Below are positions 5,020 to 11,340 of a DNA stretch of 42,288 nucleotides, piece after piece. Position 1 is the first letter of the stretch, and the number at the start of each line of letters is the position of its first letter. The translations under genes and the position numbers were made by a program. Under the pieces are notes generated by a model. The model saw only the letters and a program-made list of their open reading frames with translations, did no database searches and was not told the origin of the DNA. Source of the DNA: Candidatus Brocadiaceae bacterium (GTDB taxonomy: Bacteria > Planctomycetota > Brocadiia > SM23-32); the NCBI GenBank assembly GCA_003551305.1, contig PUMJ01000061.1, positions 1 through 42,288 on the forward strand. Reading direction: 5' to 3'.

Positions 5020-6357
5020 TCAGTCCTCGGGCGGTTCGCCTCCCATCACCTCCTGCCACCTGCGGACGGTTTCCTCCACGTCCACGGGGCTGCCGCCGGC
5101 CCGCAGCGTCACGGTGCGGCCGGCGTGGATGGTGCGCGCCGTTCCCTCAGAACGCGCCGTCGCGGTGCCGCTCAGCACAGTGATGCTGACGGTGTCCGGC
5201 TCGGGGACGAGGAGTTCGGCCTGCGCCCTCTCCGCCGAGACGGTGGCGGGGCCGGCGTGGCTTTCCAGGATGCCGCGCCTGTGGGTGTTGTCCAGCAGCG
5301 CCGTCCCCTCGTAAAGACTGAACGTGCCGGGCCCGTGCACGCGCAGGCGGCTCTCCGGGGCCAGGTGGACGGTGCCCCCGCCCCGCCCTTCGAGGCTCAG
5401 GCGGGCCAGCCCGTCGGAGCCTGTGCTGACGACGGTTCCCCGCCGGAGACCGGCGGCCTTGCCCTGCGCCACGGGGTCAGGCCCGGCGCTGACACCCCCG
5501 CGCACCGTCTCTACGCTGCCCACGGGCCAGAAGGCGAGATAGGCCCCCACGCCCGCCAGGATGAGCAGGATGCTGCCGGTGAAACGGAGGAAGCCGGTGA
5601 CGGTCTCGCGGTTGGGCACGGCCAGCAGCACGCCCAGGTCATAGAGCATCACCAGGGTGACGGCCATCATGATCTGGGTGACCGGGTCCGGCGGCGTCAG
5701 GAAGGCCCCCACCACGAAAGCGCCCAGCAGCACCCCTTTGCGCGCCCTGCGTAACTGTCGCGAGGGCAAGATGTTCCATCGGATCAGGTAGAAGATGACC
5801 ACCGGTGTCTGAAACGCCACGCCCATCGCAAACGTCAGGAAGAAGAACGTCGTCAGGTAGCCGCCTATCATCAGCACCGGTTCGGTGGCCGGACCCGCAA
5901 GCGTGAGCAGGTAGCGCAGCGCGATGGGCACGAACAAGAAGTAGCCGAAGCAGATGCCGGTGAAGAAGCAGAACACGCAGGCCAGCCCCAGACGGATGGC
6001 CTTGCGCCGCTCGTGGCGGAACAGCCCCGGCGCCACGAAGGCCCAGACCTGGTAGATGACCACCGGCGCGGCGACCACCAGCCCCGCTATAACAGCGGCC
6101 TTCAGGTGCGCCACCACACCCTCCATGTAGGTGCTGATCTTGAGGGTGGGGTCCAGCTCGAATGCCGCCATCGCCCGCACGTGAGGCCACACGAGCACGG
6201 CCATGAGCTGATCGCGGAAAAACCACGCCACCAGCGCCACCGCCCCGATGCTGATGAGGCAGATCATCAGGCGACGGCGCAACTCCTCCAGGTGGTCACC
6301 CAGGGCCATCACGGCCCTGTCAGACCCGGCGATGATGTCAGCGCTGTCTTCACCCAT
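5020..6357 (-). CDS. tatC: Sec-independent protein translocase TatC with an added membrane segment and FecR-like C-terminal domain
   Basis: 445 residues against about 250 for normal TatC. Residues 1-250 are TatC, which with TatA and TatB moves folded twin-arginine proteins across the inner membrane: DHLEELRRRL near residue 21 with the conserved Glu, six hydrophobic segments, and the FLTPPDPVTQ motif at 219-228. A further hydrophobic segment at about 256-277 is followed by a beta-rich region of some 160 residues (GTVVSTGSDGLARLSL, TVHLAPESRLRV, ISVLSG-like TVSITVLSG) that reads as a FecR-type domain. TatC has both ends in the cytoplasm, so a seventh segment would place this domain in the periplasm. 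No tatA or tatB is in the window. ATG 6357 puts the HLEEL motif at the normal place; a perfect TATAAT lies about 47 bases upstream. Confidence 0.9.
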   Translation of the reverse strand: MGEDSADIIAGSDRAVMALGDHLEELRRRLMICLISIGAVALVAWFFRDQLMAVLVWPHVRAMAAFELDPTLKISTYMEGVVAHLKAAVIAGLVVAAPVVIYQVWAFVAPGLFRHERRKAIRLGLACVFCFFTGICFGYFLFVPIALRYLLTLAGPATEPVLMIGGYLTTFFFLTFAMGVAFQTPVVIFYLIRWNILPSRQLRRARKGVLLGAFVVGAFLTPPDPVTQIMMAVTLVMLYDLGVLLAVPNRETVTGFLRFTGSILLILAGVGAYLAFWPVGSVETVRGGVSAGPDPVAQGKAAGLRRGTVVSTGSDGLARLSLEGRGGGTVHLAPESRLRVHGPGTFSLYEGTALLDNTHRRGILESHAGPATVSAERAQAELLVPEPDTVSITVLSGTATARSEGTARTIHAGRTVTLRAGGSPVDVEETVRRWQEVMGGEPPED

Positions 6358-7002: not shown

Positions 7003-7986
7003 TCAGCGCCGCCGTCGCCGGGCGCGGTCCCGGTCACGGCGCTCCCGCGGCTCGGGGTCCCACCAGGGCTCGTCGACGTCCCACCGACGGAAAGGCTCCC
7101 GCCGGCGCAAGAACTCGTCGCCGTGGAACCAGCGGCCGCGGCGGGACGGCACCAGTGGGCGCCGCCGCGGGTAGGGCCGCAGCGCGGGATGCCGCGGCTG
7201 TATCCGGCGGGGTCGCACGCGCCACTCCAGGTGACGCCGGGGCAGGACGCGAGGGTGCGGCGCACGCCAGGCCCCCCGCCGGGCGTTTCGCTCCGGCCAG
7301 AGCCGCCTTACGGGCCGGCGTCGGGCGAGGGGCTCCCGGTCGCGTTCACGGGCCTCGAGCTGGCGCCTCCTTGTGACCTCGCGGCGCGGGTCCAGCACGT
7401 CGCGTCGCTCGGGGCGTGCTTCCTCCGGTCGCTGACGGCGCAGCGCCGGGACGTCTTCTCGCTCGCGCAGCAGGCGTCGCCTCTCCGGCGCTTCGCGGCG
7501 TGGCCGCTCCACGCCCAGCATGGCCGGCAGGCGCTCGCGCAGCGCCTCGCGGTGGACGGGATCTTCGGCCATGAAGCTCACGACCAGGCCGTCCTCCCTA
7601 CTGCGCGTCGTCACCTCAACCTCCCCGCTCATCATCATGCGCATCAGGAGCGGCTCGGCGGGGCGGCGCCCCTCCTGCCGCATGCGACGGGCCACCTGCG
7701 GGATGCGCTCCACACGCGGCGCCGTGCGGGTGTGCAGACCCTCGACTACCTCGGGGTCCTCGGAAGTGAGGAACACGTTCACTCCCTCCTCCGTGGGCCG
7801 TACCCGGACCTCGGCTTCCGTGCGTGCGAGCAGCTGCCCGAGTCCGAACCGCTGCTCCGTCGCCCGGGCGCGGGCGGGCCGGTCCGCAGCTCGCCTCGGC
7901 CGCTCCTGCGCGGCAAGGGGCGGGCCGACGCTCAGCGCCGCCAGAGCCGCCAGCAAAACCAGCACCTTCACCTTCCCTCTTTTCAT
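7003..7986 (-). CDS. Secreted arginine-rich protein with a duplicated N-terminal module; function unknown
   Basis: 327 residues. ATG 7986 follows an AAAGGAGG ribosome site and begins a signal peptide (MKRGKVKVLVLLAALAAL, cleaved after a PLAAQ-like site). Residues ~45-165 hold two similar units: EAEVRVRPTEEGVNVFLTSE and EVEVTTRSREDGLVVSFMAE, each followed by DP and a helical stretch. From about residue 165 the protein becomes extremely Arg/Pro/Glu-rich with many RR and RRR runs and a C-terminus of Arg. It is the last gene of the minus-strand series with the anti-sigma and Spy-like genes (65-base gap), which suggests a role in the envelope response. The basic tail could bind acidic polymers such as nucleic acid or polysaccharide; that is a guess. 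No known family recognised. Confidence 0.75.
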   Translation of the reverse strand: MKRGKVKVLVLLAALAALSVGPPLAAQERPRRAADRPARARATEQRFGLGQLLARTEAEVRVRPTEEGVNVFLTSEDPEVVEGLHTRTAPRVERIPQVARRMRQEGRRPAEPLLMRMMMSGEVEVTTRSREDGLVVSFMAEDPVHREALRERLPAMLGVERPRREAPERRRLLREREDVPALRRQRPEEARPERRDVLDPRREVTRRRQLEARERDREPLARRRPVRRLWPERNARRGAWRAPHPRVLPRRHLEWRVRPRRIQPRHPALRPYPRRRPLVPSRRGRWFHGDEFLRRREPFRRWDVDEPWWDPEPRERRDRDRARRRRR

Positions 7987-8051
7987 GGTCCATCCTCCTT
8001 TCGCTGCGGGGATTCCGACTGTTCCGTCTCGTGCCCAGCGTGTATCAGCGC

Positions 8052-8609
8052 TCATTCTCGTACTCCTTCCGTACTATCGGGGAACACCGGCTGCTGTTCG
8101 AACGGGTCTTCAGGTCGTTCGGGATGTCGTCGGTCCGGCTCGCGGCGCGGCGGCACCGGCGCGCCCCTTCGGCCTCGGACGGCCCGGGAGCGCATCATCT
8201 GGAACAGCCGGCGCCGCTGCTCGGGGGTCAGATGCTCCTCGGTCTGTTCAAGGTGGCTGAGCACGTTTGCCCTGATGCGCTCCTGGATGGCCTCCATGCG
8301 GCGATGGGCCGCGCGGATGGCCTCCCGGTCGGGCTCCTGTTCGGCCATCAACTCAAACAGCCGGTCGCGCTCGGCGGCCAGGCGTCGCTCCAGCGGGGCC
8401 AGCTCCCGCCGCAGGTCGCGCCAGGACTGCTCCATACGCCGCTGCTGCTCCCGGTCGAGCCCGACCTGCTCCCAGGTCCGCCGCGGTTCCGCGCCCGGCC
8501 GGTCCGGCTGCAGCCGGCTATAGAACCATATGCCGACAAACGCGATGTTGAACGCCAGCGAGAAAACCAGTATGAGCGACAGGACGCTATTGTGCGTTGT
8601 GGGTCTCAT
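8052..8609 (-). CDS. Spy/CpxP-like (LTXXQ, heavy-metal-resistance type) membrane-anchored protein
   Basis: 185 residues. One N-terminal membrane segment at about 9-30 (LSLILVFSLAFNIAFVGIWF), then an all-helical, highly charged periplasmic part. It contains LDREQQRRMEQSW and LTPEQRRRLFQMM, the paired motifs of the LTXXQ family (Spy, CpxP, CnrX-like sensors), whose members act as periplasmic chaperones or sense envelope stress or metals. The C-terminal ~45 residues are Arg/Pro-rich and disordered-looking. The start overlaps the anti-sigma gene by 23 bases with a GGGAG site inside that gene, so the two are translationally coupled. Likely partner of the anti-sigma protein; metal binding is not shown. 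Confidence 0.75.
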   Translation of the reverse strand: MRPTTHNSVLSLILVFSLAFNIAFVGIWFYSRLQPDRPGAEPRRTWEQVGLDREQQRRMEQSWRDLRRELAPLERRLAAERDRLFELMAEQEPDREAIRAAHRRMEAIQERIRANVLSHLEQTEEHLTPEQRRRLFQMMRSRAVRGRRGAPVPPRREPDRRHPERPEDPFEQQPVFPDSTEGVRE

Positions 8610-9054
8610 CCCATTCTCCCTCGCTCATAAAGGACAGATAGACCTCCTCCAGGCTTCCCGGCGGTGCCGAGGCAAGCAGGGCGGCCGGCAGATGCCGGGT
8701 CTCCTCCGTGACGGCGCTCGCCACGTCCCGGCCGGCGGCGATGCCCAACCCGATGCCGGTCACGAACAGCAGCAGGGCGGCGGCCCTGCGAAGCGGCCAG
8801 GTGCGCCGGACCTGCTCGACGTGGACGGCCCGGCCGCGGCGCTCGGCGCGTTGTCGCAGGCGCGCGGCGAAGTCCGCCTCGCCCTCGCGGGCACCGAGCG
8901 CGCCCAGCAGCGTCCGCAGCCGTTCGAGTTCGTCCCGTTCGGCGGCGCAGCGCCGGCAGTCCCCCACGTGCGCCCGCACGAGAGCCGCCTCGGCCGAGTC
9001 AAGCTCGCCGTCCTTCAGGGCTCCAAGCCTTCTTGTCGCATCTTCGCAGTTCAT
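8587..9054 (-). CDS. Zinc-finger anti-sigma factor (ZAS, zf-HC2) with one membrane segment
   Basis: 155 residues. The N-terminus has the zinc-binding pattern of ZAS anti-sigma factors: Cys3, then His29-x3-Cys33-x2-Cys36 in HVGDCRRCAAERDELERL. Such domains bind ECF sigma factors in the cytoplasm until a signal releases them. A membrane segment lies at about 92-110 (AAALLLFVTGIGLGIAAG), followed by a periplasmic tail of ~45 residues. ATG 9054 has a strong AAGGGAGG site. Its sigma partner is probably the ECF gene at 10536-11213, although a 640-base gap and two other genes separate them, which is unusual because the pair is normally adjacent. Confidence 0.8.
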   Translation of the reverse strand: MNCEDATRRLGALKDGELDSAEAALVRAHVGDCRRCAAERDELERLRTLLGALGAREGEADFAARLRQRAERRGRAVHVEQVRRTWPLRRAAALLLFVTGIGLGIAAGRDVASAVTEETRHLPAALLASAPPGSLEEVYLSFMSEGEWDETHNAQ

Positions 9055-9126
9055 CGTCCTCCTCCCTTAATAATAAACGGACGAAGGCGCGGAATCCTGC
9101 GGTCTTTCTTTCTGTCCGCCGCCGCA

Positions 9127-9212
9127 GAGGGGGGATGAAGCCCTGGGTGCCCGGCAGGCACCCCGGGAAACCGGCAGCCGACAACAAGACCGCGCCCTGA
9201 AAGGGCGCCATA
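9127..9212. repeat. GC-rich interspersed repeat, copy 1
   Basis: Contains GAAGCCCTGGGTGCCCGG, a short palindromic ACCCCGGGAAACC part, and CGCGCCCTGAAAGGGCGCC. The same elements in the same order occur near 37988-38039 (AGCCCTGGGT, CCGAAACC, CGCGCCCTGAAGGGGCGC). Similar palindromic units are widely scattered in PVC and other bacterial genomes and may be REP-like; that link is from memory and not tested. Confidence 0.5.
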
Positions 9213-9335
9213 ACGGGGGGGAGAACAGAACACGGACGGCCCCCTCAACAGCCCGCCGTACGGCGGACTCGGCATGGGATATGGGCGCCCGCGGCGGGCG
9301 ATATGCCGCTTTCCGCTGTCCCGCGGAGTAAACGC

Positions 9336-9364
9336 TTGACATAAACCCTATGAACGTATAGTAT
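9336..9364 (+). promoter_or_regulatory. Near-consensus sigma-70 promoter with no gene directly downstream
   Basis: TTGACA at 9336-9341, a 17-base spacer, TAGTAT at 9359-9364. It is the best housekeeping promoter seen in the window. Transcription would start near 9371 on the plus strand and run through a gene-free region, then antisense into the Spy-like gene at 9695-10273. It could drive a small RNA or an antisense RNA. Confidence 0.65.
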
Positions 9365-9370
9365 CTTCTG

Positions 9371-9560
9371 CAGGCCCTTGACCAGGACCTCCACAGCTCC
9401 AGGCAGGAGCCGGCTTCGGATGGCTGCATGGGAATTGCTCAGTCCCCCGGCGGGGAGTCGAAACCGCCGGGCCTTCACGCTCGGCAGGCCTCATCCGAGT
9501 CGGTGATGCGGTGCTTTCTGCGAAACGAACCCATTTGCTCTTTGGCACTCTGATGGTGAC
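9371..9560 (+). ncRNA. Possible small RNA downstream of the orphan promoter (3' end not known)
   Basis: The region begins at the expected start of the 9336-9364 promoter. It contains a hairpin with an 8-base stem (CCCGGCGG / CCGCCGGG) and a 10-base loop, plus several shorter complementary stretches. I could not match it to tmRNA, SRP RNA, RNase P, 6S or a riboswitch class, and I see no clear terminator, so the end is arbitrary. No ribosome site with a believable frame follows. Confidence 0.25.
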
Positions 9561-9694
9561 GTGTCGTGTGCTGCCATTCGCCGCCGGGCGAACGGCCGGG
9601 CGGCGTGGCTACCTGATTCTTCCGTCTGTGATCCCCGCTCACGCCGGCGAGGGGCCGGCCCGCTGCTCGTCGCGAGGGTCACCTGGCGGGGCTG

Positions 9695-10273
9695 TTATTC
9701 GGAGGGAGGGGGCGGTTCGCGGGGGGCCTCATCGGGTTCGGTGCGCTCCTGCCGGAGGTCCCGGCGGCGACCGGGTCCGAAGGGGCGGTCGGGGTCGCGC
9801 AACCCCCGCTGGTCGGGCTCTACGCCGCGACCTCGCCCGGCCCGGGTGGCGCGGCGGCGCTCGCGCAGGGTGGGGAAGTGCTCGTCCAGTCGCTGCACCT
9901 GCTGCTGCCAGATGCGGTCCTGCTCTTCGTCCAGCACCGAGGCGATGTCATGGTCCAGCAGAGCCAGCTGCTGGACGATCCTCGGCCGCAACTCCGAGCG
10001 CGCATGCTGCAGGGCCCTGTAATGCTCCTGCAGGACGGGTTCAAGCCGGCGGCGCTGCTCGGGCCTCAGGTTCAGATCCCGGTCGAGGCGGCGGAGCATG
10101 CGTTCGGCAAAGACCTCCGGCGCCTGCTCGGCAGGGGCGGCCCGTTGCCGGGACATCCCGAGGAAGGTCGCGCTGGCGCCTATGGCGATGCCCGCCGCCA
10201 GGATGAGGAGTCCCAGCAGGACGGACTTCAGCAGCCCGTGCGCGGCCGGAGGCGTCTGGAGGGTTTCGGTCAT
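9695..10273 (-). CDS. Second Spy/CpxP-like membrane-anchored protein
   Basis: 192 residues. A membrane segment at about 13-36 (LLKSVLLGLLILAAGIAIGA) is followed by a helical charged domain with FAERMLRRLDRDLNLRPEQR and a second helix pair, then a disordered Arg/Pro/Glu tail. The helix pattern and the LxLxPEQ-type motif resemble the LTXXQ/metal-resistance fold seen again at 8052-8609, so the two are probably distant paralogues. ATG overlaps the stop of the preceding small membrane gene (ATGA at 10270-10273), giving a sigma, membrane protein, Spy-like operon. Probably a periplasmic sensor for the ECF pathway; the stimulus is unknown. Confidence 0.7.
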   Translation of the reverse strand: MTETLQTPPAAHGLLKSVLLGLLILAAGIAIGASATFLGMSRQRAAPAEQAPEVFAERMLRRLDRDLNLRPEQRRRLEPVLQEHYRALQHARSELRPRIVQQLALLDHDIASVLDEEQDRIWQQQVQRLDEHFPTLRERRRATRAGRGRGVEPDQRGLRDPDRPFGPGRRRDLRQERTEPDEAPREPPPPSE

Positions 10274-10539
10274 TGTGCAGCCCAGGTCACGACTTCGAGG
10301 ATACCGTTCACGGCGTCAAAGCGCTGCTGCCAGGTCAGCACCGCCGCGACAACGAAGGCCGCGGCCGCCGCCGACGAAGCCAGCGACATCCACAACAGCG
10401 GGCGCTGGCGCGGCGCCTGATGCAGATGGCCGTGCTCGCGGAGCGTGGCCAGCACCGAATCGGCGACCTCGACGCTCGGGGCCCGCTCCCGCCGCGCGTT
10501 CTCTATCAGCTTCTCCAGCGGTAAGCGCTTCATGGTCAT
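10270..10539 (-). CDS. Small single-pass membrane protein, possible ECF anti-sigma
   Basis: 89 residues. A charged N-terminal ~40 residues (MKRLPLEKLIENARRERAPS, then helical) precedes one membrane segment at about 47-67 (LWMSLASSAAAAAFVVAAVL) and a short outer tail. It overlaps the sigma gene by four bases and the next gene by four bases, the arrangement expected of a sigma regulator. It lacks the His/Cys zinc motif of the anti-sigma at 8587-9054. Short proteins of this type are common after ECF sigma genes in Planctomycetota. A second ATG at 10533 has better spacing from the GGAG in the sigma gene. Confidence 0.65.
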   Translation of the reverse strand: MTMKRLPLEKLIENARRERAPSVEVADSVLATLREHGHLHQAPRQRPLLWMSLASSAAAAAFVVAAVLTWQQRFDAVNGILEVVTWAAQ

Positions 10540-11213
10540 AGCTCCAGTTCGATCTCGGCTTCGGCGGCCACCTGCCGCAGTTTTTTCAGGGCCCGGTGCG
10601 TCTGCACCCGCACGTGCACTCGGGACCAGCCGATGCGGCGGGCCGTCTCTTTCACGTCACACTGCTCCAGGTAGCGCAGCGTCAGGACCAGTCGGTCGCG
10701 CGCCGGCAACCGCTCCAGCAGGTGATGGACCAGGTCGGCGGCCTCCCGCTGGTCCCGGCCGTCATCCGTGCCCAGGCGGTTGAGCAGGGCGTCCGAGAGG
10801 GCGACCGGTCGGCGCTCCTTTTCCTGTTCCTTCCAGTAACGGTAACCGACCCGGGTGGCAATGCGGGCCAGCCAGTGCTCGAAGGGCGCCCGGGCGCTGT
10901 AAGTGGCCAGGCTCAGGTACGCTTCTACGAACACCCTGTGGGTCAGTTCCTCGTGCTCGCCCCTGTCACGGGTGAAACGCCACATGATTTTGGCCACGGC
11001 CGCCTGGTGGCGCTCGACCAGGCGCCGGTAGGCGTCAGAATCGCCGTTGAGGCTGCGGCGGATGTCCGCGGCGTCGGCGCTTTGATGCTCCTCTGCCCCG
11101 GCCTGGTGCGGGCGCTCAGCGGCGCCCAGCCATGCGACCAGAGCCAGAAGCGAAGAGCGCGAAGACCGCGCCCCACCGCCGCCCATGCCGGCGCTGATTG
11201 CAGCTTCTGCCAC
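10536..11213 (-). CDS. ECF-type RNA polymerase sigma factor
   Basis: 225 residues. Region 2 reads DAYRRLVERHQAAVAKIMWR through AYLSLATYSARAPFEHWLARI; region 4 is LLERLPARDRLVLTLRYLE followed by the helix-turn-helix DVKETARRIGWSRVHVRVQT. Regions 1 and 3 are absent, as in ECF factors that direct polymerase to stress-response promoters. GTG 11213 is chosen because GAGGAG lies six bases before it; a TTG at 11219 touches that site and is less likely. About 55 N-terminal residues before region 2 are low-complexity. First gene of a three-gene overlapping set. Confidence 0.88.
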   Translation of the reverse strand: MAEAAISAGMGGGGARSSRSSLLALVAWLGAAERPHQAGAEEHQSADAADIRRSLNGDSDAYRRLVERHQAAVAKIMWRFTRDRGEHEELTHRVFVEAYLSLATYSARAPFEHWLARIATRVGYRYWKEQEKERRPVALSDALLNRLGTDDGRDQREAADLVHHLLERLPARDRLVLTLRYLEQCDVKETARRIGWSRVHVRVQTHRALKKLRQVAAEAEIELEL

Positions 11214-11340
11214 CGTCAACTCCTCGTCTCAGGACGTCAGGACGGCCGCCTGTGCCGGTTCGCTCCGGCGGCCGGTGCAGGCCCCGCCTGCCAAGCGCGC
11301 CGACGGGGCCCGCGGGCCTCACCTACCTCCATTATCAGGG

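Follow-up and report, generated by a model that had tools for sequence, protein, structure and literature searches.

A conserved FecR-type extension of TatC in the planctomycete class of the anammox bacteria

One gene of the window (the whole stretch of 42,288 nucleotides analysed here) encodes a TatC protein extended by a seventh transmembrane helix and by a tail that almost certainly belongs, from profile comparisons, to the FecR family. This fusion is not a new architecture but a real, conserved and partly known one: the earlier note had treated it as unfamiliar and without an established role, while a C-terminal FecR domain had been described in 2010 on the TatC of Kuenenia stuttgartiensis (kustc0286) by Medema et al. 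(PMC2881027). The fusion is an old feature of most of the class, including a family without a detectable anammox enzyme. With respect to the literature searched, what is new is its occurrence in this family, where hydrazine synthase was not detected, its grouping in a single TatC clade and its setting in the phylum. Comparison of sequences was sufficient to establish the fusion, the family of the tail, its conservation, the purifying selection on it and the single clade. The likeliest role of the tail, with a probability of about 0.4, would be, by analogy, that of a structural appendage on the periplasmic side of the TatAC core complex.

The fusion protein and the identity of its tail

The position given in the earlier note was correct, and the strand, which it had not indicated, is the minus strand. 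The parts of the gene and of its product are the following:

5020..6357, minus strand: tatC-fecR fusion gene, 445 aa, start ATG at 6357, stop at 5020-5022
5659..6297, minus strand: TatC core, residues 21-233 (PF00902, E=7.7e-58)
5530..5610, minus strand: seventh transmembrane helix (TM7), residues 250-276, predicted from hydropathy, flank charges and the model helix
5068..5514, minus strand: FecR-type domain, about residues 282-430, predicted non-cytoplasmic (PF04773 matches of orthologues, tail-profile matches, cross-family profile comparison)
5044..5103, minus strand: conserved C-terminal element, residues 419-438, with a GG-x-P-V-D motif and Trp434 on a short helix (15-tail alignment, model helix)

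The TatC core had been proposed to be complete, and indeed PF00902 matches it over model positions 1-207 of 208 (196 bits, cut-off 25.1), TIGR00945 is also above its cut-off (186.5 against 132.7), and Glu25 of the HLEEL motif, Glu116 and the TPPDP motif are fully or almost fully conserved in the alignments. The protein thus matches the TatC family by sequence, and twin-arginine substrate transport is its putative function. A DUF7534 match overlapping the end of the core was below the cut-off in the window protein and was ignored. In the genome no TatC was found besides the fusion protein, and there is only one TatA/B-type gene (79 aa), located on a separate contig; the translocase looks TatB-less, that is, made of TatA and TatC.

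At residue 183 (5809-5811) the window TatC has a Gln, as do 26 of 26 FecR-bearing TatCs, in place of the usual membrane-buried Glu, presumably the equivalent of Glu170 of E. coli. Gln is also found at this position in most other planctomycete TatCs sampled, and Glu in 19 of 22 TatCs of other phyla.

The seventh hydrophobic segment, previously placed at residues 256-277, was recovered both as a hydropathy maximum (263-281) and as a helix in the AlphaFold2 model (250-276), where it is followed by beta strands and by a C-terminal helix (427-438). The input alignment for this model consisted of the window protein and related TatCs, without an alignment for the tail. Structure prediction of the full protein, which had been suggested as a check, therefore gave a divided answer: the core was modelled well (pLDDT mostly >80), while the beta-rich tail, having no alignment, remained at low confidence and gave no usable fold match. 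When the tail was modelled alone the result was again beta-rich, with a pLDDT of 44 and no usable fold match at such low confidence.

In most of the fusion proteins the stretch preceding TM7 contains more Lys and Arg than the one following it, a flank-charge count consistent with a predicted N-in/C-out orientation of the helix. The FecR domain of the window protein is thus predicted to lie outside the cytoplasm. The extracytoplasmic placement put forward in the earlier note is supported, as a prediction, by hydropathy, flank charges and the model, and three programs agree on it for the Kuenenia protein (PMC2881027).

The assignment of the tail to FecR becomes visible at the level of the family. 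The window protein alone does not match PF04773 at E<=1, although 20 of its 24 orthologues do (best E 3.6e-9), so that the search proposed earlier fails for the single sequence and succeeds for the family; no other Pfam family was matched by the tails of the 24 members. Unlike that of Kuenenia, the FecR domain of the window protein has diverged so far that Pfam does not recognise it in the single sequence. The tails of the window's family (f1) and those of the other families are related with 99.1% probability in a profile comparison (139 columns, E 1.1e-18). A profile built from 15 tails, in all of which Trp434 is invariant, matched 6ovk (E=6.6e-7) and 4m0h (E=1.5e-4) in the PDB, which we take to be PupR and a Bacteroides-type anti-sigma protein, respectively.

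Conservation and distribution in the class and beyond

We searched 58 genomes around the window's assembly and found a TatC match in 53 of them. The same fusion, which the earlier note had proposed to look for in relatives, is encoded at least partly in 51 of these 53, a count that includes matches reaching the tail and tails lying beside a TatC broken by a frameshift (G028) or by a contig end (G036). G049 and G056, which belong to the 51, have a TatC cut by a contig end that nevertheless includes FecR sequence. A plain TatC of ~280 aa was found, among the 53, only in both genomes of family f3. An assembly artefact or a chance join is ruled out by the recurrence of the fusion in many independent genomes, including full-length copies in single-contig genomes (G015, G024 and G027); the apparent split in G028 is a frameshift, and the orthologue is intact in other genomes of the same genus.

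Purifying selection acts on the tail: its dN/dS, for pairs of moderate distance, is 0.06-0.21, compared with 0.05-0.08 for the core, and its dN is 1.1 to 3.7 times that of the core. In a tree of TatC cores the FecR-bearing TatCs form one clade, with an SH-aLRT of 94, just below the usual 95; f3 falls outside, and no loss of the tail was seen within the clade.

Across 294 genomes sampled from the phylum, full-length matches are confined to the class. In the phylum of Pelagicoccus (145 genomes) and in that of a Bryobacterales genome (99 genomes) no TatC-FecR fusion occurs among the matches listed: none of the listed TatC matches extends beyond about position 272, apart from one that reaches 317 and has an internal stop, and the listed FecR matches are separate genes.

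The class, which we take to be Brocadiia of the GTDB, is that of the anammox bacteria. The hydrazine synthase alpha subunit of G015 is identical across 782 residues to PDB 5c2v_A, whose source is presumably Kuenenia stuttgartiensis; this genome is therefore K. stuttgartiensis or a very near relative. Its TatC is a full-length orthologue of the window protein, with 31% identity, and kustc0286 shares with the window protein the combination of a single tatC and a FecR domain at the C-terminus, predicted to lie outside the cytoplasm. However, Kuenenia is an anammox bacterium, whereas neither the window organism nor its family shows hydrazine synthase. HZS_alpha (PF18582) was found in 35 of the 58 genomes, and the fusion is present in Kuenenia and in other genomes with hydrazine synthase; in f1 the fusion occurs in seven of nine genomes, and none of the nine has a match to HZS_alpha or HzsB. 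HzsA was also unmatched in a small number of f5 genomes that are nearly complete (e.g. G013 and G026), perhaps owing to poor assembly of duplicated hzs genes, and for this reason the argument from missing hydrazine synthase rests on the nine of nine in f1. The fusion is also found in f2 and f4, where the best HzsB matches are 38-39% identical and lie inside larger frames, and where many HZS_alpha-like domains occur in other proteins.

Two genomes, G009 and G011, have 16 and 11 PF18582 matches, located in open frames 774-1730 aa long, together with HzsB-like segments (38-39% identical), a pattern that represents an expansion of hydrazine-synthase-like proteins.

The literature searched contained one report of a TatC with FecR in planctomycetes (PMC2881027), and a TatC survey of 2013 does not mention FecR (PMC3827258). 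According to Medema et al., no other TatC known at that date had the domain; three programs placed it outside the cytoplasm, and the authors suggested that it takes part in anammoxosome sorting, the Tat system being predicted as anammoxosomal (PMC2881027).

Additions to TatC in the phylum and in published structures

We surveyed the phylum using TatCs of 83 families with a measurable insert, which fall into three groups: plain TatCs, TatCs with an insertion in loop 1 (TM1-TM2, periplasmic) and TatCs with TM7. Loop-1 insertions, of 20-211 residues, were found in 37 families and TM7 in 12, of which seven have FecR, three (f16, f45 and f79) a second domain, f14 another tail and f66 a short tail. 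None of the 12 TM7 families has a loop-1 insertion, against 37 of the 71 others (Fisher p=4e-4, a value that ignores relatedness). On the tree, TM7 requires at least four changes and the loop-1 insertions about nineteen, and a tree-based test of exclusivity had too few independent pairs. These counts give a suggestion that TM7 and the loop-1 insertion are mutually exclusive.

The TatCs of f16, f45 and f79 (L081, L082, L084, L102 and L115) resemble that of the window in having a six-helix core, TM7 and a predicted trans-side tail. Their tail, of roughly 150-180 residues, differs: its relation to FecR has a 0.2% probability in the profile comparison, it matches no Pfam family, and these proteins form a separate clade. 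This second architecture, TM7 with a domain unrelated to FecR, is also seen in L083 and L103, and the literature searched yielded no description of it. Several planctomycete TatCs (L119-L129, L175, L180 and others) carry TM1-TM2 insertions of about 70-211 residues, and some acidobacterial TatCs have a seventh hydrophobic segment and a short tail. In one f67 genome (L241:836-2929:-) the TatC frame runs on into a YchF/Obg-like GTPase, for a total of 698 aa, which may be due to a frameshift or an assembly join.

Extra mass on the periplasmic side is also known from recent structures, where core complexes are (TatBC)3: in Myxococcus xanthus the periplasmic insert of TatC assembles as a homotrimer above (TatBC)3 with extra TatC-TatC contacts, while that of Nitratifractor salsuginis is disordered and unrelated to it (PMC13323110). 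Periplasmic mass is what these TatCs (PDB 9E03, 9E0S and 9E02) share with that of the window; they differ in that it consists of loop inserts in TatB-containing complexes, with no seventh helix and no FecR. From the alignment, the loop that bears the Nitratifractor insert is the same TM1-TM2 loop that is extended in planctomycetes.

Extending TatC on the trans side looks like a broader tendency in the phylum. A broader proposal, which we regard as improbable, is that the Tat systems of planctomycetes, which seem to have no dedicated TatB, need an extra trans-side TatC element, supplied by alternative and exclusive means (TM7-FecR, TM7 with another domain, or a loop-1 insertion); the FecR tail would then be one version of a part that is not in the standard TatABC model.

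Origin and possible role of the tail

FecR-family anti-sigma regulators (6ovk, 4m0h and L238) are related in sequence to the tail and have the same arrangement of a transmembrane segment followed by an extracytoplasmic FecR domain; they carry, however, a cytoplasmic anti-sigma part, whose place is occupied by TatC in the window protein. In the phylum, stand-alone FecR proteins have the order cytoplasmic N-terminal part, one transmembrane segment, FecR. One of them, L238 (758 aa, in the window genome), matches the tail profile from within the transmembrane segment onward (positions 4-173, i-E 1.9e-16), and its N-terminus contains, as read by eye, a Cys/His-containing anti-sigma-like segment. 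Joining the cytoplasmic C-terminus of TatC to the TM-FecR half of an L238-like protein would keep both topologies. We infer that the C-terminus of the single TatC was extended once, in the common ancestor of most of the class, by such a module, similar to the membrane half of an anti-sigma protein of the FecR type. Through TM7 the chain would return across the membrane, placing FecR on the trans side beside the TatC core, in the periplasm or, in anammox cells, possibly in the anammoxosome lumen. There it may touch the FecR domains of adjacent TatC subunits, or the periplasmic face of TatC, and such contacts could stabilise or regulate the TatC oligomer.

This reading of the tail as a structural appendage is favoured by analogy with the M. 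xanthus insert (PMC13323110). Also counted in its favour are the fusion in 51 of 53 genomes, the clade, the selection on the tail, the single TatA/B gene and the trans-side mass of other lineages; against it count the low-confidence tail structure, the faster divergence of the tail and the fact that signalling is what the FecR family is mainly known for. Moreover, trans-side additions need not be structural: the insert of M. xanthus sits in a loop and has no relation to the tail, and that of Nitratifractor is disordered.

The neighbourhood of tatC bears on signalling. Upstream of it, 0.7-5 kb away, lies a cluster (7003-11219, minus strand) that looks like an envelope-stress locus:

10536-11219, minus strand: ECF sigma factor
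9695-10273 and 8052-8609, minus strand: two Spy/CpxP-like metal-resistance proteins
8587-9054, minus strand: zinc-finger anti-sigma protein
7003-8055, minus strand: long basic protein

Together with the FecR-type domain, this locus would agree with a tail that reports the state of the envelope or of export to a sigma factor. However, the ECF cluster is not among the tatC neighbours shared with relatives, nor are any recurring FecI or FecA-type (TonB-dependent receptor) genes, and several anammox families have housekeeping genes beside tatC (the ribH, nusB, ftsY region). Pfam finds no anti-sigma domain in the fusion protein, whose cytoplasmic side is TatC, and for most f5 (Brocadiaceae-type) genomes, among them that of G015, the sole FecR match is the TatC tail itself, so that these genomes have no FecR signalling family. 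For the envelope sensing raised in the earlier note, a mechanism of the FecR/FecI type is thus disfavoured, and we consider a signal-transducing tail very unlikely. Slightly less likely still is that the tail is a passenger, tolerated but functionless. Its divergence, faster than that of the core, and the fact that other families manage with plain TatCs would fit such a reading, but its near-invariant residues, its dN/dS and its retention throughout the FecR clade speak for constraint.

A better candidate, although we hold it to be possible rather than likely, is a trans-side receptor or tether, in line with the substrate docking or peptidoglycan binding proposed in the earlier note; it would hold emerging Tat substrates or bind peptidoglycan or another envelope component, placing the translocon or handing on its cargo. 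The predicted position at the exit side, the selection on the tail and the C-terminal motif with its invariant Trp, a possible binding site, agree with it; FecR as the only Pfam match offers no known ligand-binding motif, however, nor does any partner gene recur next to tatC in different families. Sorting of Tat substrates or of the translocon to the anammoxosome membrane, as suggested for Kuenenia, would suit the genomes with hydrazine synthase and a Tat system predicted as anammoxosomal (PMC2881027), but not the fusion in f1, where neither HzsA nor HzsB was matched, nor that in f2 and f4, two families with weak HzsB-like matches. Because the fusion occurs in f1, an anammoxosome-specific role is unlikely, and we give the sorting idea a low probability, only a little above that of signalling; the tail may have been co-opted for sorting later, in anammox lineages.

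Sorting in anammox cells is the sole published idea that we found for this fusion, and the distribution described here undercuts it. The presence of the fusion in relatives without detectable hydrazine synthase shifts the question to the Tat machine itself and to the benefit that a domain attached at the exit side brings to a TatAC translocase.
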